This document shows positions 31,314-32,323 of a DNA stretch of 32,323 bases, piece by piece. A model generated the notes under the pieces. It saw only the letters and a list, made by a program, of their open reading frames with translations, did no database searches and was not told where the DNA came from. Numbering within the stretch: position 1 is the first letter of the stretch; each line of letters starts with the position of its first letter. The position numbers and the translations under genes were made by a program. Source of the DNA: Acidobacteriota bacterium (GTDB taxonomy: Bacteria; Acidobacteriota; Terriglobia; Acidiferrales; UBA7541); assembly GCA_003154775.1 (NCBI GenBank), contig PMES01000103.1, positions 23,368 to 55,690 on the forward strand, written 5' to 3'.

Positions 31314-31443
31314 TGTCGCCAGGCAGCCCCAGGGCACCCGGGTGAATCCTATCTGGTGAACTTCCCCGCGAAGAATGCGGGAACTCCAGCGGGCATTTGG
31401 GGGAAGAAGGAAACAGGGCAAGCTTGCCCTTTGGACACGAAGA

Positions 31444-32175
31444 ATGAAAAAAACGATCTACATGGCTGCTTTCGGATTGGGCTTCATTGTTACACAGAAT
31501 CTGCATGCTCAAGCGCCTCCGGGACCCATTCAGCCTGCTCCCTCCGCGGTATCCTCCACGGCGCCGCCTGCGCCGCCGGTAAAACGGATTGAACCGAGGA
31601 AGAGCATTCTGGGAGCATGGAAACTGAATAGCGACGAAAGCGACGATCCGCGGCAAAAAAGCGCGCAACGCTCAGCGGGCAATTCAACTGGCAATCCTGG
31701 TGGGAATGGCGGCGGCCCGCGCGTGGGCTGGCCCGGCGGCGGAATGGGTGGGGGCGGGATGGGCGGTGGACACCACGGGAATGGCGGATCGCAGAATGGC
31801 ACGGCGGAAGATCGCCAACGCTACAACCAGTTGCTGGACCCTTCGATCCGGCTGGAGCTGGCGCGGAAAAATGACAAGGATCCCATCGTCGAAATGATGG
31901 GCGATCAAGGCCGGAAGACGGTTTTCTATACGGACGGGCACAAACCAGACGCACCAGCGGGTGTCGGCACGGAAGTAGTGGAAGCAAAATGGGACGGCGC
32001 GAAACTGGTGAGCGATTCCACGCTGCCAAAGAATGGCTCGTTGAAGCGGACCTACGAGGTGTCGCCGGATGGACTGCAGTTGTGGGAAGAAGTTGAGATG
32101 GTGAGCGGTAAGGACAAATACCCATCCAAATTCCGTTTTGTCTACGACGCCGTAGCCCCGGGCGACAATTACTAG
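31444..32175 (+). CDS. Gly-rich exported protein, unknown function
   Basis: A 243-residue protein beginning at the ATG at 31444 (MKKTIYMAAFGLGFIVTQNL) with a Sec signal ending HAQA. The mature N-terminus is Pro/Ala-rich, then ILGAWKLNSDESDDP, a lipocalin-like opening (G-x-W-x-x-N), then a roughly 40-residue Gly-rich segment (GNPGGNGGGPRVGWPGGGMG and more), and a C-terminal domain of beta strands ending SPDGLQLWEEVEMVS and FRFVYDAVAPGDNY. I recall similar proteins in acidobacteria annotated only as hypothetical. The earlier in-frame codon at 31375 is not used because it would place residues before the signal peptide. It is followed on the opposite strand by the 3' end of a group II intron, 41 bp away. 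Confidence 0.8.
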   Translation: MKKTIYMAAFGLGFIVTQNLHAQAPPGPIQPAPSAVSSTAPPAPPVKRIEPRKSILGAWKLNSDESDDPRQKSAQRSAGNSTGNPGGNGGGPRVGWPGGGMGGGGMGGGHHGNGGSQNGTAEDRQRYNQLLDPSIRLELARKNDKDPIVEMMGDQGRKTVFYTDGHKPDAPAGVGTEVVEAKWDGAKLVSDSTLPKNGSLKRTYEVSPDGLQLWEEVEMVSGKDKYPSKFRFVYDAVAPGDNY

Positions 32176-32216
32176 CCGAACTTTCTCACGAGCTACAATT
32201 TTGAAGTTGAGGTCCT

Positions 32217-32323
32217 GTCGAGTAGGCGCAGCGGGTTGCCCCGCCGCGCCTCTCACAGAACCGGACTTGCGGGCCTCGCATCCGGCTCTTTGGATCGTTG
32301 ACTCAGAAGACCAGATGAAGCTG
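32217..32323 (-). mobile_element. Group II intron, 3' end (domains V and VI); body lies right of the window
   Basis: On the minus strand, a complete domain V hairpin (32288-32258), domain VI (32254-32220) and a 3' end in CTACTCGAC at 32217 can be read; group II introns usually end in AY. The pattern is canonical (see separate ncRNA entry). The maturase/reverse-transcriptase ORF would lie to the right, beyond 32323, and the 5' exon is not visible. The 3' exon starts AGGACCTCAAC and reads toward the Gly-rich gene's stop, so the intron sits in intergenic DNA on the opposite strand. Whether the intron is whole cannot be seen. Confidence 0.8.
32220..32288 (-). ncRNA. Intron ribozyme domains V and VI with bulged branch-point A
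   Basis: Domain V: GAGCCGGA (32288-32281) pairs with TCCGGTTC (32265-32258), including the usual G-U at the third pair and AGC catalytic triad in GAGCC; a 2-nt AG bulge and TGCG/CGCA upper stem follow. At 31 nt it is slightly shorter than the common 34. Domain VI: GAG plus AGGCGC plus GGCGGG, GCAA tetraloop (GNRA), CCCGCT plus GCGCCT, then an unpaired A (32223) and CTC. That A is seven bases from the 3' end, the normal branch point. Confidence 0.8.

Follow-up and report, generated by a model that had tools for sequence, protein, structure and literature searches.

What does a group II intron use as its home when only its last 107 bases are in view? The question is raised by the right edge of the window, by which we mean the whole stretch of 32,323 nucleotides analysed here, the last 32 kb of contig C7 of an Acidobacteriota genome; the final bases of window and contig coincide (55690 of 55690). 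When the whole window was searched with cmscan, 32290-32217 on the minus strand matched RF00029 (Intron_gpII) over model positions 1-77 of 77 with 44.4 bits (E 9.2e-6; gathering cut-off 40 bits). Folded by hand, domain V shows an AGC triad, a G-U pair and a 2-nt bulge, and domain VI carries a GCAA loop and a bulged A, the seventh base back from the intron end (...GAC). In an alignment of 11 homologous copies, 99.3% of the 306 cells in the drawn domain V-VI helices are paired, and 7 of the 28 helix pairs, six of them in domain VI, are altered on both sides. Double changes occur in 19 cells against a shuffle mean of 5.8, a number reached in none of 500 shuffles, and pairing drops to 39-46% when the structures are slid along the alignment. 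The first-pass annotation had claimed a group II intron 3' end here, with an AGC triad and G-U pair in domain V and a GNRA-capped domain VI whose bulged A lies seven bases from a terminal AC; the Rfam match and the covarying helices bear this out, and the details are as it described them. It was also right that the intron is antisense to the nearest gene, whose stop codon is 41 nt away. It does not mention other copies of the intron in the genome, its class or a hairpin target, which are taken up below. Coordinates are collected in the table.

Features at the right edge of the window (positions in the window; strand as + or -)
Feature	Position	Strand	Basis
Neighbouring gene frame	31375..32175	+	Open reading frame opposite the intron strand
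Short dispersed repeat, most of the 3' exon	32172..32208		Seven further copies in the genome
3' splice junction ...CTCGAC/AGGACC	32216..32217	-	Same end with different exons on C26, C3 and relatives
3' part of group IIC intron, cut off by the contig end	32217..32323	-	Rfam match; 43-nt exact match in MAGs
Domain VI with GCAA loop and bulged branch-point A at 32223	32220..32254	-	Rfam match; covariation
Domain V	32257..32289	-	Rfam match; covariation
Putative C-terminal six codons and stop, intron-encoded protein	32303..32323	-	Line-up with relatives by eye

Contig C7 stops inside the intron, so that the RT and the 5' end of the window copy are out of sight; as the contig ends there, the lack of an RT within 3 kb does not refute the intron in this assembly. 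With the 107-nt tail as query, exact matches of 20 nt and 19 nt to the intron's last bases were found in the same genome at the extreme ends of contigs C26 and C3, where the shared 3' end is followed by different exons. With a whole relative as query, a 5' intron end was found at the end of contig C44 (82% identical to relative L030 over 382 nt, starting GTACG), and a 5'-end pattern detected no further 5' ends in this genome. Since contigs end at three 3' junctions and at one 5' junction, the intron must be present in several copies that the assembler was unable to span. The window intron is one of at least three copies in the genome, broken by the assembly.

C44 was rejected as the 5' half of the C7 or C26 copy because the exons do not pair, the longest exact complement being 7 nt with C7 and 6 nt with C26. 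The exons at the ends of C44 (L038) and C3 (L040) do pair, with 30 nt exact and a near-perfect inverted repeat over 60 nt, and the intron lies in opposite orientations in apparent left ends of one IS type. Our reading of C44 and C3 is that the intron inserted twice into a near-palindrome, once in each strand, and it may be able to enter either strand of such an IS sequence; the two ends could also belong to a single locus. Two further RT sequences in the genome were discarded as the missing half. That on C58 is of another class (RF02005) and sits on a very long branch in the protein tree, and the RT fragment on C37 adjoins integrase-like frames, and an intron 5' end was not visible there. The C58 element (L008 2642-4528) is a group II intron distinct from the first; its 494-aa RT frame is open, and it has an RF02005 domain I-IV and a domain V-VI match of 36.4 bits, under the cut-off of 40; putative conjugation genes appear to flank it. 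The C37 fragment (L011 2230-2514), of yet another type, abuts the integrase-like frames and runs off the contig.

Relatives supply what the window copy does not show. A 43-nt piece of domains V-VI recurs exactly in six Acidobacteriota MAGs, and the window copy has the domain V-VI sequence of this lineage. Five of the six hold a complete intron of 1958-2061 bases, which starts with GTGTG in four and with GTACG in L029, so that the GUGYG rule is followed by four of the five; their 3' end is CTACTCGAC. The RT frame is open to its C-terminus in four of these five and ends differently in L033, where it looks broken. On the minus strand, 32323-32303 reads as six codons and a stop; in an alignment made by eye these correspond to the C-terminal end of the protein in L030 and others, and the 13-nt spacer to domain V lines up as well. 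Intact domains V-VI and the relatives' open protein frames suggest that the window-copy lineage would be able to splice. Plasmids carry further relatives in Sinorhizobium meliloti SM11 (two), Rhizobium leguminosarum, where the RT is annotated as two overlapping frames, and Novosphingobium resinovorum. In a DNA search, two of the 396 genomes of the phylum, the window's own included, matched the whole intron; the closest copies, those in the six MAGs, came from a different collection. It was not found in viral contigs. At two family loci (L031 and L036) the 3' end is the visible part. L036 (3007-3079, Novosphingobium sp. PP1Y plasmid Lpl) is a domain V-VI tail of the family; the preceding 3 kb has no RT annotation, which suggests a fragment or an ORF-less copy.

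RNA and protein were classified on the relatives and, for the RNA, also on C44. RF02001, the IIC-type domain I-IV RNA, matches all seven family loci scanned, C44 among them, and seven of eight control class C loci (the exception is L060). The closest solved protein to the family RT in the PDB is the GsI-IIC RT, with 369 bits against 123 for LtrA, and in the protein tree the family's six members group as one clade, next to other RF02001 introns (support 99/97 against eight other class C proteins). Judged by the RNA and protein of its relatives, the intron is a group IIC intron. Domain V sets the family apart: where it has AGC, the six class C controls whose domain V could be read have CGC. The two-base bulge, which falls within the catalytic core, also differs. 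In 10 of 11 family rows it is AG (the window and the Acidobacteriota copies) or TG; in the six controls, and in the family-like row L021, it is CG.

The 5' and 3' exons are complementary to one another in all nine relatives for which both junctions are known. Their scores range from 12.3 to 21.3; when exons are swapped between loci, the mean is 9.1 and the maximum 15.8. The observed sum over the nine loci was reached in 0 of 20000 permutations. Shuffled 3' exons scored as high as the locus's own in 3/200 cases for L029, 2/200 for L030 and 1/200 for L054, and in none for the other six. When the two exons of a locus are joined, they fold into a single long hairpin, which the intron divides. Across the nine loci its arms differ and its centre is similar. 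In the five control class C introns with readable ends, out of eight (L060, L061 and L063 have no clear 5' or 3' end), exon complementarity is 6.0-8.2, and in four of the five a terminator hairpin with its T-run lies wholly within the 5' exon, L058 having no clear one. Insertion after an intrinsic terminator, common though not general in group IIC (IIC-attC introns differ), was not encountered in the nine relatives, nor was a T-run terminator in their 5' exons. Two points of entry were observed: in Acidobacteriota the intron lies to the 3' side of the hairpin centre, in alphaproteobacteria in or beside the apical loop, directly after ...GCGTAG.

Alleles without the intron were found for some of these sites. 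The joined exons of the pSmeSM11c copy equal pSymA of S. meliloti RU11/001 at 340/340 positions, in an ISRm9-type element and ahead of its istA frame, and those of the pSmeSM11b copy match another plasmid at 99.7%, beside istB (an IS21-type site). These alleles show that the S. meliloti intron boundaries are exact and that the hairpin exists without the intron; in S. meliloti, insertion was into a pre-existing hairpin. At the Novosphingobium site, IS3-type homologues at 69-80% cross the junction, and for the Rhizobium leguminosarum site an intron-free allele was sought and not found. In the Acidobacteriota loci L029, L030, L032 and L034 the joined exons keep a frame open into transposase orfA, which is weak evidence because more than one frame is open in L030, L032 and L034. 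A scan of L029, L030 and L034 found HTH_Tnp_1 in the first two and scored 24.0 in L034 against a cut-off of 24.1.

When intron-free IS3 and IS21 relatives are aligned, the arms of the hairpin vary and the centre is nearly fixed. The core can be written GNA-GG-GA-NNNC-GNA-GNNN-GA-CC-GNA and consists of a C-GNA-G triloop, a GA/GA internal loop and a GNA/GNA internal loop, motifs of a kind that is probably unusually stable in DNA. As an exact pattern the core is present in 13 of the 396 genomes of the phylum, the window's own included, at 0-4 matches per genome, and the reversed pattern has no match in the same 396; the window's own genome has one match, beside an intron. A 35-nt version of the core occurs in 186 plasmid records; those displayed (60 records) and the ten genera named are alphaproteobacterial, and 12 further genera are among the 186. 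The core was not found in a phage collection. An Rfam search of 12 loci with intact hairpins gave three matches up to E 10, none at the family cut-off and none at the hairpin.

The arms differ from element to element. At 19 of 22 distinct intron-free sites at least 12 of 14 arm positions are paired, compared with 9 of 462 swapped combinations; the other three sites, from two genomes, pair at 2, 7 and 7 of 14. Two rows at the intron-bearing C44 site and a third row truncated by a contig end were dropped from this count, which is confined to loci that fit the core pattern (L068-L070, L100 and L101 are among those that do not). The core reads toward the IS gene in 12 of 12 assignable cases and off the contig in 12 of 12 at contig edges, and the independent count is smaller because several cases are copies of one element; L067, L073, L075, L081, L082, L087 and L093 are unscored, as no IS gene was identified for them and they lie at no contig edge. 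By annotation and Pfam, the neighbours of the hairpin include IstA/IstB, rve and HTH_Tnp_1 proteins, and L033, L085 and L086 are probably IS481-like, to judge from their HTH and rve domains. In L082, two copies of the core 270 nt apart (1501-1522 and 1771-1792) have poor arms and overlap a long open frame, and may represent a tandemly repeated unit instead of a hairpin of a transposon.

The surroundings of the window copy itself differ from those of its relatives. The neighbouring gene is 93% identical over 462 nt, up to its stop, in a genome of the same genus, where the sequence beyond the stop is unrelated and there is therefore no intron at that place. The 3' exon opens with A, as on C3, C26, L029 and L033, then enters a dispersed repeat, and meets the chromosomal gene stop after those 41 nt with no transposase or IS gene in view. 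The repeat (GCCGAACTTTCTCACGAGCTACAATTTTGA..., elsewhere running on into ...CAGCACCCTGTCATCTTGA) is found in at least seven other places in the genome (86-94% identity, E below 1e-5) and also in the same-genus genome (loci L042-L048 and L106), and the window intron interrupts or adjoins one copy. By eye, a hairpin at this place is not evident in the other copies. Either the window copy entered the reverse strand of an element end, as the C3 copy seems to have done, or it entered another kind of site; the repeat, the gene stop and the lack of a transposase in the 3' exon make the hairpin target less certain here than in the relatives.

Taken together, we give about two chances in three to the reading that the intron in the window is a group IIC retro-intron, present in this genome in three or more copies, whose lineage retrohomes into a conserved hairpin of several IS families. 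The intron RNA would splice by branching with the help of its class C maturase, and the resulting RNP would reverse-splice into the hairpin folded as single-stranded DNA, on the 3' side in Acidobacteriota and at the apical loop in alphaproteobacteria, leaving the hairpin divided between the exons as observed. That the substrate is folded single-stranded DNA is suggested by analogy with the IIC-attC introns. Splicing would then rejoin the exons and restore the hairpin. The window copy, placed by kinship, is expected to have arrived in the same way. Its 5' exon, which is missing from the assembly, would on this model end in the GNA/GA core and have an arm complementary to GGACCTCAACTTC. For the transposon the hairpin may serve as insulation. 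A broader proposal is more tentative, and we hold it at somewhat less than even odds: that several unrelated IS families of two phyla share an inward-reading hairpin near their end, fixed in its core and freely covarying in its arms, as an insulating or ssDNA-folding signal, which has become the universal homing site of one IIC lineage.

The same tail could come from an ordinary class C intron lying beside the intrinsic terminator behind a gene, with the relatives' hairpins being just terminators. The window copy does sit just behind a gene, and IIC introns are described, in the parts of PMC4424553 and PMC3522654 available to us, as inserting after intrinsic terminators. What makes this unlikely is the position of the hairpin, which spans the junction in nine of nine relatives, whereas four of five controls keep hairpin and T-run on the 5' side; in Acidobacteriota, moreover, it stands at the start of transposase frames. 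The window intron is also antisense to its neighbour, so that the gene's terminator would fall on the intron's 3' side. A dead tail that has lost its 5' part is likewise an improbable reading of the window copy. In its favour, the sequence upstream of 32323 is out of view and a complete copy cannot be assembled; against it, C7 stops where a multi-copy element would halt the assembler, and C26 and C3 stop in the same 3' end.

Homing into a transposon hairpin also has to be set against the idea that the core is no transposon module at all, having been carried or left behind by the intron or being a REP-like mobile palindrome. Its single occurrence in the window's genome is beside an intron, and the core palindromes, led by GTAG or GGAG, resemble REP elements. 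We regard this origin as quite improbable, since the core is also present in intron-free IS copies, the arms differ between elements, the orientation is inward wherever it was scored, and the low copy number in few genomes of the phylum is not the high copy per genome expected of REP-like sequences.

If retrohoming into the IS hairpin is correct, a folded hairpin would open many different transposons to one intron. Recognition of structure rather than sequence by IIC introns is so far partly worked out, and a fixed core with free arms, two entry points and intron-free alleles up to 100% identical make recognition of folded DNA directly testable. As for the hairpin, it has no Rfam entry and looks like a module found in transposons of several families; that it points inward wherever it was scored suggests a function they share.

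Among known systems, terminator-type IIC introns such as GsI-IIC share with this family the IIC RNA (RF02001), a class C protein and a hairpin as part of the target, but the family intron enters its hairpin instead of following it, and its 5' exon has no T-run terminator. IIC-attC introns, as far as the consulted part of PMC7923331 describes them, have as target an imperfect inverted repeat of variable sequence and insert into or after its stem-loop. The family target is also an imperfect inverted repeat of variable sequence, but one borne by IS elements and built on a GNA/GA core; no attC boxes (R, L) and no TTGT/T consensus were seen by eye at the family sites. In the portions consulted of PMC5894124, PMC7923331, PMC4424553 and PMC3522654, terminators and attC sites appear as IIC targets, and one class C intron is reported in S. 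meliloti GR4. In the titles and abstract openings searched, whose coverage of IIC targets is incomplete and does not prove priority, neither a transposon hairpin as target nor class C introns inside a shared IS hairpin was encountered.

The hairpin, imperfect and led by GTAG or GGAG, resembles REP or GTAG-tagged palindromes. Unlike REP palindromes, it is of low copy number, stands beside IS genes, has long element-specific arms and points inward. RmInt1 is a group II intron that homes into the insertion sequence ISRm2011-2, and the present family resembles it in having an insertion sequence as host in Sinorhizobium. According to the part of PMC5894124 consulted, RmInt1 belongs to class D. Where RmInt1, of that class, uses one type of IS, the lineage described here is IIC and is found in several IS families.
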